From positions 1-31,110 of the IMG/VR virus record IMGVR_UViG_3300042883_000257: a DNA stretch of 31,110 nt. One strand, written 5' to 3'. A program made the translations under genes and the position numbers. This DNA is from a virus. Positions 2,071-31,110 of the stretch are shown here, in pieces (within the stretch, counting starts at the first letter, position 1; the number at the start of each line of letters is the position of its first letter). The notes beneath the pieces were generated by a model that was not told where the DNA came from, searched no databases, and saw only the letters and a program-made list of their open reading frames with translations.

Positions 2071-2118
2071 TTTATGACAATTTTATGACAAAAGTATTAA
2101 TTAATCATATTACTTTTG
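2071..2118 (+). promoter_or_regulatory. promoter P1, first copy of a three-copy 48-bp module
   Basis: The module holds direct repeats TATGACAA at an 11-bp period, then about 19 bases, then the -7 box TACTTTTG (2111-2118), which fits the Bacteroidetes consensus TAnnTTTG. The same arrangement at identical length occurs at 24377-24424 and 14005-14052, both on the minus strand. Here it faces right, 22 bases before ATG 2141, and should drive the plus-strand operon. The repeats cover the -33 region, so they may bind a regulator or may themselves serve as the -33 element. Confidence 0.65.
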
Positions 2119-2140: not shown

Positions 2141-2263
2141 ATGGATTTAATTGTATTTTTATTCTGTGCTTCACCAATAATAGTAGCTCTATTATTTGCA
2201 CTTTTAATTGATTGGATTATGAAAAATTTTAAAAAAATCGAAGCAAATGAAAACATTATTTGA
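2141..2263 (+). CDS. 40-residue single-pass membrane peptide
   Basis: The first gene after promoter P1. Residues 2-27 are almost wholly hydrophobic (VFLFCASPIIVALLFALLI is the core), followed by a basic tail, MKNFKKIEANENII, so it is probably one inner-membrane helix with a cytoplasmic C-terminus. Its stop lies inside the next gene (ATG 2247), which suggests coupled translation. Function unknown; early-expressed small membrane proteins of phages often act on host envelope functions or exclusion, but nothing here shows that. Confidence 0.55.
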   Translation: MDLIVFLFCASPIIVALLFALLIDWIMKNFKKIEANENII

Positions 2264-2474
2264 ACGCTTGAAATCTAAGCATCTTGAAAAGTTAAATCAC
2301 GAAGCTTTAAGTTATCCAAAGACTATTGAATACATAATTAATGACTTAAAAAAAAATAAATTTATTGACGATCTAACTTATAAAACTGTTTATAATTTAC
2401 AACTTATTTTAGCTGATTATCAAAATGTTTCTTTTTTAGACCTTTATAATTTATTTGAGCATGATTTGGGATAA
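2247..2474 (+). CDS. hypothetical 75-residue protein
   Basis: Second gene of the plus-strand operon, overlapping the membrane peptide upstream by 17 bases and the next gene by 14. It is lysine- and leucine-rich with a predicted all-helical pattern (for example LFERLKSKHLEKLNHEAL, and NLQLILADYQ near the C-terminus). It has no cysteine cluster, signal or catalytic motif. Tight overlaps and a shared promoter argue that it is real. No family recognised. Confidence 0.6.
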   Translation: MKTLFERLKSKHLEKLNHEALSYPKTIEYIINDLKKNKFIDDLTYKTVYNLQLILADYQNVSFLDLYNLFEHDLG

Positions 2475-2730
2475 GATTCACGCAGATTACGTTAAAAAGT
2501 TTAACGATTTGCCAAATTCAGAAACTAAGGAAGAAGTTTATAACGCATTAATTACAACAAGATATTTTGGTCAGTTAAAAAGTAAATACGCTACTTTTTT
2601 GGAAGAAACTTTATTGAAAGAAGATGAAAGTATTCTTGATATGATGCATGATCTACATCTTGAATACAAAGAAAATAAAACTTCGTTTGGCGAAGCTGGA
2701 ATAAATTTAAAAAGTGGGTGGGGGTTTTAA
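2461..2730 (+). CDS. hypothetical 89-residue protein
   Basis: Third and last gene of the plus-strand operon. I chose ATG 2461 (MIWDKIHADYV); the frame is also open two codons earlier from a TTG at 2455. It is charged and mostly helical, with no membrane segment or recognised motif. The Gly-rich end (SGWGF) is encoded within the terminator hairpin at 2711-2745. No function can be assigned. Confidence 0.6.
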   Translation: MIWDKIHADYVKKFNDLPNSETKEEVYNALITTRYFGQLKSKYATFLEETLLKEDESILDMMHDLHLEYKENKTSFGEAGINLKSGWGF

Positions 2731-11930: not shown

Positions 11931-11963
11931 TAAAAAAATGACTTACCATTTCTGATAAGCCAT
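11931..11963 (-). terminator. intrinsic terminator closing the tRNA/accessory block
   Basis: Minus strand: ATGGCTTATC, loop AGAAAT, GGTAAGTCAT (10-bp stem with two G-U pairs), then a T tract at 11938-11932. It separates the accessory block with its tRNA genes from the tail chaperone gene starting at 11910. The roughly 80 bases between the tRNA 3' end (12045) and this hairpin hold no gene that I can support. Confidence 0.75.
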
Positions 11964-12044
11964 TTATTATCGTCTTTCCGAATGTCAAGCAAGTTCTCCA
12001 GATTAACGGACTGGATGCCATTTAGGAAGATTACCATTTCTTCG

Positions 12045-12128
12045 CTGACAAGGAAGGATTCGAACCTCCAAGATATTACTATCACTATCGGGACAAGATA
12101 GCGTGTCTGCCAATTTCACCACCTGTCA
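12045..12128 (-). tRNA. class II tRNA with anticodon GUC (unusual)
   Basis: The minus strand folds as a full cloverleaf: acceptor TGACAGG/CTTGTCA (7 bp, one G-U), D stem GTG/CAC with loop AAATTGGCAGA, anticodon stem CTATC/GATAG with loop TTGTCCC, variable arm GATA-GTAA-TATC, T arm GGAGG-TTCGAAT-CCTTC, discriminator G. The D arm and long variable arm are Leu/Ser-like (class II), yet the anticodon is GUC (Asp). C at position 37 and a U1-A72 first pair are abnormal. CCA is not encoded. The charging enzyme cannot be read from the sequence: G73 plus the long arm would fit SerRS better than LeuRS. Confidence 0.7.
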
Positions 12129-12197
12129 TTGTATTATTAATGATTCATAAATGTTAATATTTATGATCTTTGTATTAAATATAACTTATTAGCTTTA

Positions 12198-12356
12198 TTA
12201 TTTATCCGATAAATCGATGTTTAATTTAGTAGCTTTTAATAATAATTCTAATATTGCATTCATTCCATCAATGAAGCCTATGCATTCATCGGCATTATGC
12301 TTTTCTTTGATATACATTCTAAGCATAGCTTCGAGTTGTTCTTTAGTAATAAGCAT
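12198..12356 (-). CDS. hypothetical 52-residue protein
   Basis: ATG 12356 to TAA 12198 (MLITKEQLEAMLRMYIKEKH... ending KLNIDLSDK). It looks like a small helical protein: two amphipathic helices around an EC-IGFIDG turn. It fills the space between the 84-residue gene and the tRNA in the P3 accessory block and has normal codon use for this phage. No family recognised. Confidence 0.55.
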   Translation of the reverse strand: MLITKEQLEAMLRMYIKEKHNADECIGFIDGMNAILELLLKATKLNIDLSDK

Positions 12357-12424
12357 TTTCAATTCAGTTTAATTATAAGTTTTACAAGCCAATACGGCTA
12401 TTGATTTTACATTATTACAAGGCG

Positions 12425-12679
12425 TTAGTCTAAGATTATGGGGGTGTTATTATATGATTCAAAAATTACATCTCTATCAATTATATCCTCAATCTCAGGA
12501 TTAAGACCTTCAAAGTCTTTTAGCTTATCATTCATTAATCGCTTTGTTTCTCGCCTATCGTTTTCAATCTGTATTCTTGCGTATTCGTGCATGGCTCTAA
12601 TCCAATGTTCTGAGGTAGTTCCTTCAACAAATGTGCATCCGTTTTTATTTGATATTTCTATGGCTATTTCTGCTTTCAT
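12425..12679 (-). CDS. hypothetical 84-residue protein
   Basis: Acidic, helix-rich protein (a run such as RIQIENDRRETKRLMNDKLK in the middle) without membrane segment or metal site. It follows the 68-residue gene by 13 bases in the same operon. A plus-strand open frame overlaps it but has no context support. Function unknown. Confidence 0.55.
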   Translation of the reverse strand: MKAEIAIEISNKNGCTFVEGTTSEHWIRAMHEYARIQIENDRRETKRLMNDKLKDFEGLNPEIEDIIDRDVIFESYNNTPIILD

Positions 12680-12692
12680 CTTTCTTTATGGG

Positions 12693-12899
12693 TTAGTAAT
12701 TAATAATAAAAGTGGTATCTGCCATTGCAGTGATATACCCACCAAAGCTCCCATTCTCTGCCTTAAGTTGGGTGAGTTGGGGCTTTCTAACTATCTCATA
12801 CTTATTACTCCAATGGTTTAGGCATGATTCAATTTCTCCTACTGGCATACATCCATCAAACATATCGCCTTCCATTTCATCTCTTATTGTCTTTTCCAT
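12693..12899 (-). CDS. hypothetical 68-residue protein
   Basis: Small protein with two cysteines (DGCMPVGEIESC) and a beta-like C-terminal half (NGSFGGYITAMADTTFIIN). It lies in the accessory block under promoter P3. No recognised domain. Confidence 0.5.
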   Translation of the reverse strand: MEKTIRDEMEGDMFDGCMPVGEIESCLNHWSNKYEIVRKPQLTQLKAENGSFGGYITAMADTTFIINY

Positions 12900-12926
12900 T
12901 ATTATTGTTTAGGGGTTATAACTTTT

Positions 12927-13067
12927 CTATTTCTTTATATTATTAGCTTTGTGAACGATTTTTAATACATCCTTAATCAATGTGATATTAATAGATGATT
13001 CCATTTCCCAATTTCCCCATCCCATTAATTTCAATTCTTTGATTATTTTATCGGTGGTTAGTTTCAT
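12927..13067 (-). CDS. hypothetical 46-residue protein
   Basis: ATG 13067 to TAG 12927: MKLTTDKIIKELKLMGWGNW, then a second helix ending HKANNIKK. It is short but open, starts just after the tRNA-like gene, and continues the chain of small minus-strand genes in this block. Function unknown; it could also be chance coding. Confidence 0.45.
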   Translation of the reverse strand: MKLTTDKIIKELKLMGWGNWEMESSINITLIKDVLKIVHKANNIKK

Positions 13068-13088
13068 GATGTTAATTCGTTTAATTAG

Positions 13089-13225
13089 TAGTCAGGGCAG
13101 GATTCGAACCTGCATGGTGGGTATTTTTCTTTATTACATTACAATGCGTGGAACTACCCCATGTGATCATCATGTTTTAACCTTAAAACCAACAAGTATG
13201 CGTCTGCCAATTCCGCCACCTGACT
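13089..13225 (-). tRNA. tRNA-Leu-like gene with an enlarged middle region (137 nt)
   Basis: The minus strand has a perfect acceptor stem (AGTCAGG/CCTGACT), a Leu-like D arm (GCG, GAATTGGCAGA, CGC), a perfect T arm (GCAGG-TTCGAAT-CCTGC) and A73. Between D and T arms are about 85 bases instead of the usual 35 or so. Part folds as a long variable-like hairpin (CATGGGGTA facing TACC-CA-CCATG). The expected anticodon arm is not clean: the options are CTTG-TTGGTTT-TAAG or GTTTT-AAGGTT-AAAAC. No anticodon can be assigned. It may be an insertion-bearing tRNA, a degenerate one, or a tRNA mimic. Confidence 0.5.
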
Positions 13226-13305
13226 ATTTTACTTTAATGTGTTAAGTTATAAACTATAATAAATAATAAAATTGAATATATTTGTCTTATACCGCCAAAA
13301 CCACA

Positions 13306-13395
13306 AACCTTGTGAGCGTTGCGGTGGCAGATTCCGCCAGACTTGCGGAACTGGGGGAATTATTTTGTTATAAGCAACCGTGGGAGTCGCTCGTG
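13306..13395. repeat. GC-rich dyad element R1, abutting a stop codon
   Basis: A GC-rich patch in very AT-rich DNA. It holds the hairpin TTCCGC-cagactt-GCGGAA (13332-13350), outer partial complementarity (GAGC and GTTGC on one side, GCAAC and GCTC on the other) and GTTATAAGC at 13367. On the minus strand it begins with ATCTAAC, which contains the TAA stop of the 83-residue gene. A related element, R2, lies on the other side of that gene. Confidence 0.5.
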
Positions 13396-13647
13396 TTAGA
13401 TACTATCAATGCAAAAATCTTCGCCCCATATTTCATAGAAACCACCATAACCTCCTTGTACTTCAATTTTGCAACTAAAATCTAAATTGTTTTCTCTAAT
13501 ATCTTTAAAGTCCGTCATTACGTGGTCGCCTTTTCCGTAGTATTCATCCATCATTTCTAATGCTTTTGCTCTTGATGTTGCTACTCCGATAACACTTCTA
13601 TCGTTATCGCTTTTATCTTTTTCGTGTATTACAATAATGTTTTTCAT
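13396..13647 (-). CDS. hypothetical 83-residue protein in a dyad-flanked cassette
   Basis: Soluble alpha/beta protein starting MKNIIVIHEKDKSDNDRSVI, then an alpha helix (SRAKALEMMDEYYGKG), then a Gly-aromatic C-terminus (GGYGGFYEIWGEDF). The pattern of beta strand, helix and beta strand suggests one compact domain; family not recognised. It is bounded on both sides by related GC-rich dyads (R1 and R2), like a mobile gene cassette, and its stop codon is part of R1. Confidence 0.6.
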   Translation of the reverse strand: MKNIIVIHEKDKSDNDRSVIGVATSRAKALEMMDEYYGKGDHVMTDFKDIRENNLDFSCKIEVQGGYGGFYEIWGEDFCIDSI

Positions 13648-13675
13648 TTGATTTTTTTTAAAATTATATTAAGTG

Positions 13676-13732
13676 GTATGCTTATAACAGCAGTTACACG
13701 ATGCCAGCCTTGCTGGAACTGGAATGTTAGTT
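13676..13732. repeat. GC-rich dyad element R2, abutting a stop codon
   Basis: It contains GCTTATAAC (13679-13687), the hairpin CCAGC-ctt-GCTGG (13704-13716) and AACTGG. The inner part (CTTGCnGGAACTGG) matches R1, and the GTTATAAGC box recurs inverted. On the minus strand the element starts AACTAAC, again covering the TAA stop of the preceding gene (13727-13963). Confidence 0.45.
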
Positions 13733-13963
13733 CGTTATTAAATTTCTTTTGCAATAATTTTCTAATTTATTTATTAATCTTAATGGAATGTTTGAACCAT
13801 TTTTTGCAGTCCATTGTAAAGAAGATGACAATCCGTTTATTATAGCAATTCTTTGACCTTTGTAATAAACATCAATCCAATTAGTTGACATTGGAGTTGA
13901 AAACATTTTGAATTTTAATTCGTTTGTGTCAGATAAGTTTTGTGTGTTTACTAAAGCTTTCAT
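13727..13963 (-). CDS. hypothetical 78-residue protein
   Basis: First gene after promoter P3. I chose ATG 13963 (MKALVNTQNLSDTNELKFKM); the open frame extends three codons further to a TTG. It is basic, with the segment WIDVYYKGQRIAIINGLSSS in the middle and a helical, Lys/Asn-rich end. A 13-codon frame (ATG 14003) runs from P3 into this start with an ATGA overlap and might act as a leader peptide. No family recognised. Confidence 0.55.
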   Translation of the reverse strand: MKALVNTQNLSDTNELKFKMFSTPMSTNWIDVYYKGQRIAIINGLSSSLQWTAKNGSNIPLRLINKLENYCKRNLITN

Positions 13964-14004
13964 GATTTGCAAGTTTTGTGCAACCCTTTATTGAATTGCA
14001 TATT

Positions 14005-14052
14005 CAAATGTAATACAGTTTAATATACTAATTGTCATAGAATTGTCATAAA
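14005..14052 (-). promoter_or_regulatory. promoter P3, second copy of the 48-bp module
   Basis: Minus strand: TATGACAATTC then TATGACAA (11-bp period), about 19 bases, then TACATTTG (14012-14005), a perfect TAnnTTTG. It drives the accessory block that starts at 13963 and ends at the terminator at 11931. It is 48 bases like the copies at 2071 and 24377, and shares the bases after the -7 box (AATATG) with P2. Confidence 0.65.
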
Positions 14053-17177: not shown

Positions 17178-17473
17178 ACAAGTTTTTTTATAAGTATAGA
17201 AGCAACGCTTGAAGTGAATGCTATAATTAAAGAAGCTACTATGCCATAGTTAAAATATAAAGCTGATAAAAAAGCTACCCAGAACGATAAGCAATATCCG
17301 CAATCGAAAGGTTTTAAACGATATGGTTTGCGAACATAATCATAACCAGGAATTTTTCTACCAATATCGAATTCATCACATAACCAGACGGCAAACATTT
17401 GCGGAATCATTGATACTTCGGCAAAGCTAAATCCTACACAAGCAGAACCGATAATTAATAAAATCTCATTCAT
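17174..17473 (-). CDS. small membrane protein, DUF1360-like
   Basis: 99 residues with three hydrophobic stretches (about 3-20, 60-75 and 78-95) and a loop with the motif FDCGYCLSFWVA. The CxxC plus SFWV pattern is characteristic of the DUF1360-type phage membrane proteins. Role unknown. It overlaps the sigma-like gene by eight bases and the next gene by four. Confidence 0.6.
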   Translation of the reverse strand: MNEILLIIGSACVGFSFAEVSMIPQMFAVWLCDEFDIGRKIPGYDYVRKPYRLKPFDCGYCLSFWVAFLSALYFNYGIVASLIIAFTSSVASILIKKLV

Positions 17474-18017
17474 GATAATTTAAATTTAGTTTAACGTTTT
17501 TAATTGCATTTTTTACACCATTTGCGATTGTACGAATCGGAATACCAGTTTTTATTGATACGTTTTTGTAAGTTCCTAATTGTAAATATAATTTAAGTAC
17601 TTCACATTCAAAGAATCGCAAGTCATCAATAGTCTTTTCGACTGCTTGAATCTTTGCTTCGATCTTGTCATAAGCGTTTTCGTCTTGTAATTCAAACAAA
17701 TGATTTGCAAATAATATATGATCGCTATTTTCAATTAGTTCATCGTCTATAATGTTATCCGATAATCTTTGATTTTTAAAGTTCTGATAATAAAACTTTG
17801 AATTTTTAGACCGAAATTGATTTAATCCGATACGTACAATAAAGAATTTTAAGCATTTACGCTCTGCCATATCTTCAATCTTTGCATGATCGTATTCACA
17901 AATAGTTAGAAATACATCTTGCCGTAATTCTTCCCACCATTCACCAGCGATATTCTTAAAGAAATTGATTATATCTTTATTCGTGTAATAATCGCTTATA
18001 ATCGTATTATAATTCAT
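17466..18017 (-). CDS. sigma-70-like factor (region 2 plus region 4)
   Basis: About 183 residues from ATG 18017 (the frame is open to a TTG at 18035). An N-terminal region 2-like part (GEWWEELRQDVFLTICEYD) is followed by an acidic linker and a C-terminal region 4-like helix-turn-helix (FECEVLKLYLQLGTYKNVSIKTGI-type, ending in KNVKLNLNYHE). Family role: redirects host RNA polymerase, here perhaps to late genes. The late genes lack the TAnnTTTG box of the P1-P3 module, consistent with another factor. A plain helix-turn-helix regulator is the alternative. Confidence 0.65.
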   Translation of the reverse strand: MNYNTIISDYYTNKDIINFFKNIAGEWWEELRQDVFLTICEYDHAKIEDMAERKCLKFFIVRIGLNQFRSKNSKFYYQNFKNQRLSDNIIDDELIENSDHILFANHLFELQDENAYDKIEAKIQAVEKTIDDLRFFECEVLKLYLQLGTYKNVSIKTGIPIRTIANGVKNAIKNVKLNLNYHE

Positions 18018-18399
18018 TTTGCATATACTTATCAATCAATTCAATTGTTTCGCTTACACCTGTTGAAAATGAAGCATAAGCACCTTGTGTATTTAAGTAC
18101 GTAATATACTCGCTTTGTTTTATTAAATGCTCATTAGTTTTTAACATTCCGTTAAGCTTAAATGGATTTGAATTATCAGCTTTCAATTCCAATACAAGCA
18201 TCGAATATTTATCATTTTTATAGAAGATAAATAAGTCTGGTGTGCCTTGCCCAGCTTGACCTAATCGTTTTGCTTTCTTAGCTAAGTAAATTGGCAACCT
18301 TGCACCGCTTAAATAGTTTGCCATAAACCTAACTTGTGGGTATTGTAATTTTAAATAAGTAACTATTGCAAGTTGAACAATGTCTTCAGAATTTTTCAA
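18007..18399 (-). CDS. VRR-NUC domain nuclease
   Basis: 130 residues with the PD-(D/E)xK signature of VRR-NUC proteins: GQGTPDLFIFYKN (D at about residue 55) and LVLELKA (E and K about residues 71-73). Near the start is the helical VQLAIVTYLKLQYP. Such phage enzymes act as DNA-structure-specific or repair nucleases and accompany replication helicases. The start codon is TTG overlapping the upstream stop (TTGA); the first internal ATG would cut into the domain. Confidence 0.8.
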   Translation of the reverse strand: MKNSEDIVQLAIVTYLKLQYPQVRFMANYLSGARLPIYLAKKAKRLGQAGQGTPDLFIFYKNDKYSMLVLELKADNSNPFKLNGMLKTNEHLIKQSEYITYLNTQGAYASFSTGVSETIELIDKYMQNEL

Positions 18400-22968: not shown

Positions 22969-23166
22969 TTAAAATGCTTCTTCGGTTGTGACTGGCTTCA
23001 GCTTCTTTGTTTTGCCTGGTTCTGATTCTTGATCAGCTAATGTTGGTGGTGTGAATGTGTCAATCGCTTGTTTTACCAACACGCTTTCTTCTAATTTCAA
23101 TGCACCTACACTTTGAGCCTTTAAGGCAACTTGAACAAGTATGTTCAATGCTTCGTTTTCTGTCAT
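22969..23166 (-). CDS. hypothetical 65-residue protein
   Basis: Helical N-terminal half (ALNILVQVALKAQSVGALKL) and a Lys/Glu/Pro-rich tail. It follows the SSB-like gene by four bases in the ERF operon and precedes a terminator. No family recognised. Confidence 0.6.
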   Translation of the reverse strand: MTENEALNILVQVALKAQSVGALKLEESVLVKQAIDTFTPPTLADQESEPGKTKKLKPVTTEEAF

Positions 23167-23170
23167 AATT

Positions 23171-23389
23171 TTAAAATGGTAAATCTGTTTTTACTTCTGT
23201 TAATTGTTCTGTTACTGGTGCTACGTAATCATTTACGTAAATCTTAAAGTCTGGATGCTTTTCTTCAGTTTTGTAGCTATTCGCCCACATTGAATATTTA
23301 ACATCGTTTAAGGTGAAATTAATTACTTCACCTTTTGCGGTTGTGCGTTTCCACGCTCCCCAGCTTTCTTTTTTTGCTTCTTCTGACAT
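23171..23389 (-). CDS. small protein with SSB-like C-terminal tip
   Basis: 72 residues. Beta-like segments (GEVINFTLNDVKYSMWANSY, FKIYVNDYV) suggest a small beta barrel. The last residues, VKTDLPF, resemble the acidic D-D-L/I-P-F tip by which single-stranded-DNA-binding proteins recruit partners. It sits six bases after the ERF annealase gene. Candidate ssDNA-binding protein or ERF partner; the fold call is an inference. Confidence 0.6.
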   Translation of the reverse strand: MSEEAKKESWGAWKRTTAKGEVINFTLNDVKYSMWANSYKTEEKHPDFKIYVNDYVAPVTEQLTEVKTDLPF

Positions 23390-23395
23390 TGGTTT

Positions 23396-23974
23396 TTATT
23401 TGAAATCTAATTTACGATTATTTATTGATTCTTTAAAATTAATTACATTTTGCAACATTGGATAACATACCCAAATATTTTTCAATTTGTCTAAAGTATC
23501 AACTACTTTAATTTCTGCTAAAGCTACATTTAATAAGTTAGTCATTTGAAGTTCCATTTCAGCACTTGCTTTTATTTCTTTTTCGCCTGTGTTAGTTGCG
23601 TCTGAATCTTTAGTGTCATCAATTGCAAACATTCCATTTAGTGCGTATTTACGAGCATAAGAAGAACTTGTGCCAGTGACTTGTGAACCATCCATTCCTT
23701 TTTTACTTTCTTCTTCACGTGCAAATGCTGAAACTGTCAAACTATCTTTTGCGTCGGTTATTGTAACAGTTGCTTTAACATAGTACCGATCACCAAGATT
23801 AACGAGTTCATCCGATATTGATAAATAAAGATTATGCGTTGTCAGGTGTGGCTTTAACGCTTCAAGAATATCTTCACACGATCTGTATTTGTACTTACCG
23901 AAATTATTAGTTTGATTTTTCGGTGCTTTCAAAGTGCCTTGTATTATTACAAGCTTGTCGATTAAATTTTTCAT
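23396..23974 (-). CDS. erf: ERF-family single-strand annealing protein
   Basis: 192 residues with the ERF core: an N-terminal helix, NFGKYKYRSCEDILEALKPH (25-44), a beta region with GDRYYVKATVTI, then GTSSSYARKYALNGMFAIDD followed by DSDAT, the ERF signature. ERF rings anneal complementary single strands in phage recombination and help concatemer or circle formation. The C-terminus (150-192) is the variable partner-binding part. It is followed at once by the SSB-like gene, a usual neighbour. Confidence 0.85.
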   Translation of the reverse strand: MKNLIDKLVIIQGTLKAPKNQTNNFGKYKYRSCEDILEALKPHLTTHNLYLSISDELVNLGDRYYVKATVTITDAKDSLTVSAFAREEESKKGMDGSQVTGTSSSYARKYALNGMFAIDDTKDSDATNTGEKEIKASAEMELQMTNLLNVALAEIKVVDTLDKLKNIWVCYPMLQNVINFKESINNRKLDFK

Positions 23975-23982
23975 GTCGTTTT

Positions 23983-24156
23983 TTATAAAATTACAAATTC
24001 ATTGTTTTCAAAATACCATTCTTCTTCTTGATCGAACTCATTAATAAATTCAATCAATGCAAATTTAAAATATCGTTTTGATATTACACCAAATCTGCCT
24101 TTTGTTTCGGCTTCAATCCCTTGTGGATTCGCCAATAGTTTTACTTTTGTAATCAT
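23983..24156 (-). CDS. hypothetical 57-residue protein
   Basis: ATG 24156 to TAA 23983: MITKVKLLANPQGIEAETKG, then RFGVISKRYFKFALIEFINE and an acidic end (EFDQEEEWYFENNEFVIL). It fills the gap between the 69-residue gene and erf in the P2 operon. Good codon use and no overlap problem. Function unknown. Confidence 0.6.
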   Translation of the reverse strand: MITKVKLLANPQGIEAETKGRFGVISKRYFKFALIEFINEFDQEEEWYFENNEFVIL

Positions 24157-24166
24157 GCTTTTTGTT

Positions 24167-24373
24167 TTAAATTGTGTGTACTTTAAAATCGTTAGGATTG
24201 TTATCTTTTCTGAATTTTCGCCAGTCTGGTGATACTGTTATAAAACCACCAGCGTCGATGTAATCCTTTATATATTGCTTGAAAGCTTCAGGATCGTTTT
24301 TCGCTATCTCTTTAATGCTAATTATATCACCAGCTTTTAAGCTATCAAAAAATTCAAATGCTTTTTCTTTCAT
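24167..24373 (-). CDS. hypothetical 68-residue protein, first gene after P2
   Basis: Starts MKEKAFEFFDSLKAGDIISI from ATG 24373; helical, then a beta-like segment (GGFITVSPDWRKF). The ATG lies only four bases beyond the -7 box of P2, so the message may be leaderless or start inside the gene. The frame also opens two codons earlier at a TTG, which is part of the promoter box. Function unknown. Confidence 0.6.
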   Translation of the reverse strand: MKEKAFEFFDSLKAGDIISIKEIAKNDPEAFKQYIKDYIDAGGFITVSPDWRKFRKDNNPNDFKVHTI

Positions 24374-24376
24374 ATT

Positions 24377-24424
24377 CAAATGTAATATGATTAATTAAAA
24401 GATTTGTCATAGAATTGTCATAAA
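24377..24424 (-). promoter_or_regulatory. promoter P2, third copy of the 48-bp module
   Basis: Minus strand: TATGACAATTC, TATGACAA (11-bp period), about 19 bases, -7 box TACATTTG (24384-24377). It follows a strong terminator and opens the replication/modification operon. P2 and P3 are identical in most repeat positions; P1 has one T for C in the spacer. Confidence 0.7.
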
Positions 24425-24458
24425 TAAAAACAGGTGATCAAATTAATGACCACCTGTA
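24424..24458 (-). terminator. intrinsic terminator after the lysis genes
   Basis: Minus strand: ACAGGTG, 14-base loop, CACCTGT, then TTTTTA. It lies between the spanin gene (stop 24486) and promoter P2, separating lysis from replication. Confidence 0.75.
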
Positions 24459-30512: not shown

Positions 30513-31110
30513 TTATTTATTCTTTAAAATATCTATTTCTGCTTTAAGTGCTATAATCTTTTCATTTAACTCATTGATTGCGTTTATCATTGTAGCCATT
30601 ATCGGTCTTTCTTGAATAGTTAAATCTCCATTAGCCATTCTTCCTGCTGCCTGTGGAATGTTCTTATGAATGTTTTGAGCTGAAAATCCAGTGTAAAAAT
30701 TTGCAGTATCAAGTTTTGTTTCCTCTTTCCATTTGTAAGTTATTGGTTTAATGTTTTTTAAAGCATCAAGCCCAGTTGTATAAAATCCCGAAATATTTTT
30801 TAGTCGTTCATCCGATGTAGCCGTTACGTTTCCGCTTGCATCCGTTGTTAATGCTCCTGCTCCATAAGTGAAAAGCCTTAACGCTCCCGAGTTTGAAACA
30901 ACAAATAGATTTGAAGCATCATTATTACTATTAACTAAAAACCCAGTTGTTGTACTTCCTCTAACATAAGCATTACTCCCATCTAAAATAATATTCCCAC
31001 TAAACGTAGCTGCATTTTCAACAGTCATCTGTCCACTACTATTCCAAGTAAATAATTTATTGTACCCATTATTACTTACATTTGGAGTTAAAAATGTACC
31101 TGCATTTCTC
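30513..31110 (-). CDS. tail fibre protein, C-terminal part with S74 chaperone domain
   Basis: Open from the window edge to the stop at 30513 (about 199 codons). After a Gly/Ser/Asn-rich beta part (TTGFLVNSNNDASNLFV...) comes an intramolecular chaperone of peptidase S74 type: SDERLKNI with the self-cleavage Ser, PITYKWKEE, TGFSAQNIHK, and a final coiled coil NAINELNEKIIALKAEIDIL. The domain helps trimerise the fibre and is then cut off. The N-terminus is missing here; the same-strand fragment at 1-1455 supplies it. A direct join of bases 1 and 31110 would be one base out of frame, so a little sequence is missing. Confidence 0.85.
   Translation of the reverse strand, partial: RNAGTFLTPNVSNNGYNKLFTWNSSGQMTVENAATFSGNIILDGSNAYVRGSTTTGFLVNSNNDASNLFVVSNSGALRLFTYGAGALTTDASGNVTATSDERLKNISGFYTTGLDALKNIKPITYKWKEETKLDTANFYTGFSAQNIHKNIPQAAGRMANGDLTIQERPIMATMINAINELNEKIIALKAEIDILKNK

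Follow-up and report, generated by a model that had tools for sequence, protein, structure and literature searches.

The nearest described system of the kind reported here is that of cyanophages with promoters bound by a regulator of their host. Excerpts of PMC10976474 describe host PhoB binding to phage DNA in gel shift assays (promoters of phage S-PM2d and P-SSM2 pstS), and warn that predicted phage boxes are unreliable without binding tests. The promoter module described below resembles that case in placing a putative host-regulator site at phage promoters, which would thereby follow host physiology, although here the likeness is one of sequence only. As far as these excerpts go, it differs in that the cyanophage sites serve phosphate stress, whereas here an element of heme and respiration genes heads whole operons in several types of phage. 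Among the Bacteroidetes, the HaeSR hemin two-component system of Porphyromonas gingivalis regulates TonB receptors and heme uptake (PMC3764172), but the excerpts of that paper give neither a HaeR binding motif nor a hemA target, and the system is only a lead. A term search in PMC3646045 found no binding motif for RprY.

Promoters of the Bacteroidetes primary sigma factor, sigma-ABfr, consist of a -33 TTTG and a -7 TAnnTTTG element. In Flavobacterium johnsoniae the -7 element spans -12 to -5, the RNA starts 4-5 nt further on, the T at -12 is nearly invariant and the -33 motif is weak (excerpts of PMC6847099). The -7 box of the module matches the form TAHHTTTG, whereas the -33 position of sigma-ABfr promoters is held in the module by the proximal of two TATGACAA boxes, the second lying 11 bp upstream. 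Head-to-tail half sites at a period of about 11 bp, the mark of OmpR/PhoB-type sites, were found in this box pair. Sites of that family are direct repeats of 11-bp period that overlap the -35/-33 region, and the box pair is alike in this; the orientation and sequence of the module nevertheless differ from those of any such site that could be checked.

The module and its operons in the window

The window, that is, the whole stretch of 31,110 bases analysed here, is a virus record with nearly all of its genes on the minus strand. A tail-fibre frame runs off the record at base 1 and appears to continue from its opposite end (1-1455 and 30513-31028, minus strand); the record therefore looks circular, and it is probably a circular permutation of the complete genome. 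The replication part encodes an Erf protein, a DnaA-type HTH protein, a helicase and a sigma-70-like protein (17466-18035, minus strand; phrog_1740, 2.7e-6), the last of which is a candidate for late transcription. Because the helicase-like protein matches mostly phages of Flavobacterium and Riemerella, and also of Cellulophaga, the host is probably a bacterium of the Bacteroidetes.

The module reads TATGACAA-N3-TATGACAA-N19-TAnnTTTG, and the window contains three copies of it (2073-2118 on the plus strand, 14005-14050 and 24377-24422 on the minus strand) in which all 22 specified positions are exact. A preliminary description of this DNA had recognized three copies of one module that share the box pair, its 11-bp period, the 19-bp spacing and the TAnnTTTG box, and all of these are present in each copy; the module length of 48 bp given there counts two further upstream T's. 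In 100 dinucleotide shuffles of the window, no module match with three or fewer mismatches arose. The boxes alone, at the same limit, were found three times against a mean of 1.11 expected in the window; the box pair by itself is thus less striking, and the case rests on the exactness of the copies and on the -7 box. A -33 TTTG or TTG about 19 bp upstream is absent from the window copies, which have ACAA, the end of the proximal box, in its place. The features of the three copies and of the operons behind them are given in Table 1.

Table 1. Module copies and associated features in the window
Feature	Position	Strand	Remark
Copy 1 double box, TATGACAA-TTT-TATGACAA	2073-2091	+	Predicted -50 to -32 (numbering as in excerpts of PMC6847099)
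Copy 1 -7 element, TACTTTTG	2111-2118	+	RNA start predicted at 2123-2124 (4-5 nt rule, same excerpts)
Plus-strand operon, three small genes (2141-2263, 2247-2474, 2455-2730)	2141-2730	+	Without family match
Copy 2 double box, TATGACAA-TTC-TATGACAA	14032-14050	-	
Copy 2 -7 element, TACATTTG	14005-14012	-	RNA start predicted at 14000-13999 (same rule and excerpts)
Leader element CAATAAAGGGTTGCACAAAACTTGCAA, just behind copy 2	13967-13993	-	Inverted repeat TTGCA-N7-TGCAA
Accessory block, small ORFs and tRNA-Asp (12044-12128)	12044-13963	-	
Terminator-like hairpin at end of accessory block	11936-11965	-	
Terminator-like hairpin adjoining copy 3	24430-24457	-	T tail extends into copy 3
Copy 3 double box, TATGACAA-TTC-TATGACAA	24404-24422	-	
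Copy 3 -7 element, TACATTTG	24377-24384	-	First ATG at 24373
First five genes behind copy 3, including Erf recombinase (23396-23974)	22969-24373	-	

That the copies head operons, as first proposed, holds for the plus-strand operon (ATG at 2141) and for the accessory block, which extends from copy 2 to tRNA-Asp. At copy 3 the start is ambiguous: the first ATG begins 3 nt past the -7 box, and either the first gene is leaderless or its true start lies elsewhere. The hairpin at the end of the accessory block lies in a region where six terminator-like hairpins were found and 4.9 were expected. The leader element of copy 2, possibly an operator or an RNA element, also occurs behind another operon's copy in one viral contig (L066) and, in altered form, in G397, a relative that has no boxes. 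The hairpin adjoining copy 3 is kept in relatives with its arms changed, and another terminator-like hairpin (22961-22940) follows the first five copy-3 genes. Judged from gene content, the module copies are plausible early promoters, since copy 3 heads Erf and replication genes and, in a different phage (L084, see below), the module heads an operon with a DnaA domain-IV gene.

Distribution of the module among viruses

A scan of viral contigs, in which the gap between the box pair and the -7 box was left free from 17 to 21, returned 21 stretches with 22 matches on 19 contigs, and the gap was 19 in all 22. Rescanning of those 19 records at up to three mismatches gave 28 places, and the reversed control gave none. 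The window and 19 related contigs contain 31 copies with zero to two mismatches, none with three or four, and one with five. The preliminary description had suggested a search of related phages; near-complete relatives have either two copies or three, and G002 and G009 each have three in the same layout as the window, one on the plus and two on the minus strand; copies inside the window's phage clade share descent and are not independent. A looser pattern found 45 viral stretches against eight for the reversed control; 23 of the 25 matches added in this way have a gap of 19, and a few of the 25 are probably due to chance.

The module is spread over phages of different build. A microvirus (L003; 5,842 bases, with a 123-base end repeat) that has a Phage_F capsid protein and a replication initiator carries an identical module and shares none of the 46 window proteins; no regulator was seen among its ORFs. 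In L084 and L077 the terminase and portal differ from those of the window phage, yet the module is present. In L084 it is directed away from the structural genes and heads a small-gene operon that includes an HTH gene as well as the DnaA domain-IV gene. Since both a microvirus and a tailed phage of different build have the module, the factor that would bind the boxes is probably host-encoded. In L090, of which 2,337 of 32,320 bases were examined, the module stands before a DUF932 gene, and it is absent from the cultured flavobacterial phages P12024S, FCL-2, RAP44 (49,000 of 49,329 bases) and FL-1 (50,000 of 53,088 bases). L084 and the window have a single protein in common, at 38% identity, which is encoded by a 75-aa gene in the plus-strand operon; this family (2247-2474, plus strand, in the window and 9325-9549 in L084) occurs in two otherwise different phage types, both of which have the module.

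All 28 distinct phage copies have a TAHHTTTG -7 element. This count omits group D (L085, L087 and L088), which was rejected because, with equal geometry, L085 has no plus-strand gene for more than 1 kb downstream, and also L072, L082, L083, L094 and L095, which were taken for chance matches because of other spacing or a context that looked coding-like by eye.

At terL, where 50 of 80 loci were viewed and 47 of these were long enough, the module was found at six of the 10 loci with a TerL identity of at least 88% and at none of the 37 readable loci at 76% or less; the later count, which covers all 80, gives the module at 6/80 TerL loci and 9/80 Erf loci. It was found in none of 17 further records, G397 included. 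Phages of this type thus do not require the module, which most of those with related TerL or Erf genes lack. G397 itself, a 31-kb sister of the window phage (TerL 93%, Erf 90%), lacks the box pairs at all three loci. Its alignment to the window shows that the -7 boxes are kept at the three loci and the leaders at copies 1 and 2, and that AT-rich DNA replaces the boxes; the three copies therefore behave as a set. Together with the constant 19-bp spacing and the recurrent layout, this bears out the original proposal of a promoter module that marks a regulon.

Two further observations concern promoters of this type that have no boxes. In G397 (L516/L517), TTAAAATAAATTT lies about 21 nt before the -7 box at two of the three promoter loci, and may be another shared element or an AT-rich chance occurrence. 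At the copy-2 locus downstream of terL in L362 and L363, the boxes are replaced by TATATTTG with an upstream CRP-like palindrome, TTGTG-N8-CACA.

The double box in host genomes

A scan of genome contigs gave eight matches with gaps of 17-21, three of them before hemA; a chance reading of these varied spacers was dropped because the three are hemA promoters. The host order was taken to be that of G025, a hemA match labelled uncultured Flavobacteriales, and is inferred from that one record. Among 299 genomes of this order, 47 sites were found in 46 genomes, and none in the reversed control. Individual inspection placed 38 of the 47 before hemA, four before one family of TonB receptors and five elsewhere. 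A shorter exact core gave 47 sites in 40 of 80 genomes (control, zero), namely 35 at hemA (29 read directly and six assigned by position), one at hemB, four at a bacilliredoxin-type gene, three at a TonB receptor and four others. For an unselected test, hemA was taken from 40 genomes, which yielded 28 long matches, 27 of them readable. Both TGACA cores are present in 26 of the 27; the gap is 19 in 20 loci, 18 in three and 20 in three, and in one the TTTG is not in place. Mismatches at these loci number 0-5, as against 4-7 for reversed boxes. The window module fits this hemA-type pattern, TGACA-N6-TGACA with the -7 box 19 bp past the pair. Thus the search of host genomes, another suggestion of the preliminary description, identified the box pair as a conserved hemA promoter element in one bacterial order.

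The hemA double box is not phylum-wide: among 48 hemA loci from across the phylum, which include one whose upstream DNA is too short and six that lack the STCNR marker, only three have TGACA pairs, with TTTG 33-34 nt away. No regulator gene was found adjacent to the sites inspected, and none recurs in 11 longer loci (10 hemA and one lpxK). We name the double box here as a host promoter element; full-text literature searches found no earlier description of it or of a matching regulator.

A search with the boxes only returned 62 sites, whereas the control columns sum to 31. As this is only twice the control, the case for a wider regulon rests on the recurrence of targets. The 43 sites inspected include 11 at hemA and 11 inside ORFs; others lie at multihaem cytochrome c genes in five genomes, where the distance to the -7 box is 8 bp greater, and at the start of cbb3 oxidase genes in three. 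Besides hemA, the targets of the double box are hemB, multihaem cytochrome c, TonB receptors and, perhaps, cbb3 oxidase. With neither the B12 model nor the hemin model does the score of the TonB receptor reach the cut-off. At seven host loci (L310, L314, L319, L320, L334, L337 and L344) the TATGACAA pair stands beside a palindrome, TTTAGAAT-N-ATTCTAAAT, that resembles the Riemerella Fur box as given in excerpts of PMC5609570. A Fur box reading of the pair itself was rejected, as the likeness is confined to the neighbouring palindrome.

Host and phage copies differ in the -7 element. T-12 is present in all 28 distinct phage copies and in only four of 26 host hemA copies; the other 22 have G (16) or C (6), and A-11 is present in all 26. 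A weak -7 element combined with a site over the -33 region is the usual build of activator-dependent promoters, and the poor -7 element suggests that the hemA promoters are probably activator-dependent.

Proposed mechanism and competing explanations

We favour, at a probability of about two in three, the reading that the module is a host-type regulated promoter, with boxes for a host activator and a -7 element for the primary sigma factor. The TAnnTTTG box would be read by the Bacteroidetes primary sigma factor, and the tandem TATGACAA boxes, 11 bp or one helical turn apart, would be bound by a protein of the host whose normal targets are hemA and other genes for heme, cytochromes and uptake in the order. 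With boxes predicted at -50 to -43 and -39 to -32 and centred near -41 (numbering from excerpts of PMC6847099), the bound protein would lie over the -33 region, in contact with sigma. The position of the pair over the -33 region points to a class II activator, and the 11-bp direct repeat suggests that this may be a response regulator of OmpR/PhoB type. By joining a hemA-type box to a consensus -7 element, the phage would obtain what is expected to be a strong promoter, and phages of several builds would start operons with it, probably early ones. Since the box pair is the hemA element of one host order, the regulon is most likely the host's, joined by the phage. The earlier term 'phage regulon' is therefore apt as to the regulon and most likely not as to its definition by a phage factor. 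The pair had been described as an activator site, an operator or a -33 substitute, and from the letters themselves we favour an activator site that overlaps or replaces -33, and rank a repressor operator and a plain -33 variant lower.

Phage-encoded proteins such as MotA and CII are activators of middle and early switches, and the box pair could be bound by a protein of this kind, its likeness to hemA being convergence. The copies within the clade do appear and vanish together, and the window has both a sigma-70-like gene and a DnaA-type HTH gene. However, G397, which lacks the boxes, retains homologues of the sigma-like (96%) and DnaA-HTH (74%) genes, the 5.8-kb microvirus has the module without a visible regulator, and the hemA match is far above chance in the 299 genomes; such a switch is thus unlikely. 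We also consider it improbable that the boxes are the operator of a host repressor, for example a heme- or iron-responsive one, by which the phage promoters would be repressed. Heme and uptake targets would suit a repressor, as would the adjoining palindromes that resemble the Riemerella Fur box (excerpts of PMC5609570), but the location over -33, the exact 19-bp spacing and the weak host -7 element suit activation better, and retention of the site at three phage promoters would hardly be expected.

Alternatively, the proximal TATGACAA might be a variant -33 element for sigma region 4 and the distal one an UP-like element, with no separate regulator. The fit to the -33 position is exact, and the AT-rich DNA of G397 in the same place agrees with this. 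The element is concentrated at hemA (38/47 and 35/47 sites) rather than across strong promoters, both boxes are kept, and F. johnsoniae has a weak -33 motif (excerpts of PMC6847099), all of which make this quite improbable. Very unlikely indeed is control of the phage by host PhoB through a Pho box. The 11-bp period and TGTCAT core speak for it, and the reverse complement of the box, TTGTCATAGAATTGTCATA, resembles the E. coli Pho box. The orientation of that box to its promoter is opposite to that of the module, which counts against a Pho reading, and this was dropped because no pst or pho genes are among the host targets identified (hemA, hemB, TonB receptor, cytochromes and others).

With the favoured reading, a host activator at a host-type promoter, goes a broader proposal to which we give even chances. 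The module would mark a hitherto undescribed regulon of Flavobacteriales type that serves heme synthesis, uptake and respiratory cytochromes, and phages of different families would have joined it, namely 31-kb tailed phages, another tailed phage and a microvirus. Their operons would thereby be tied to the heme and respiratory state of the host, and the tie would be gained or lost at all promoters together. This would be a case of different phage families sharing one host regulatory input. If so, infection by these phages should vary with the state in which the host keeps its heme/respiration regulator, and mutants in that regulator should support infection poorly. The module would also supply a promoter for Bacteroidetes that is short and probably both strong and regulatable.
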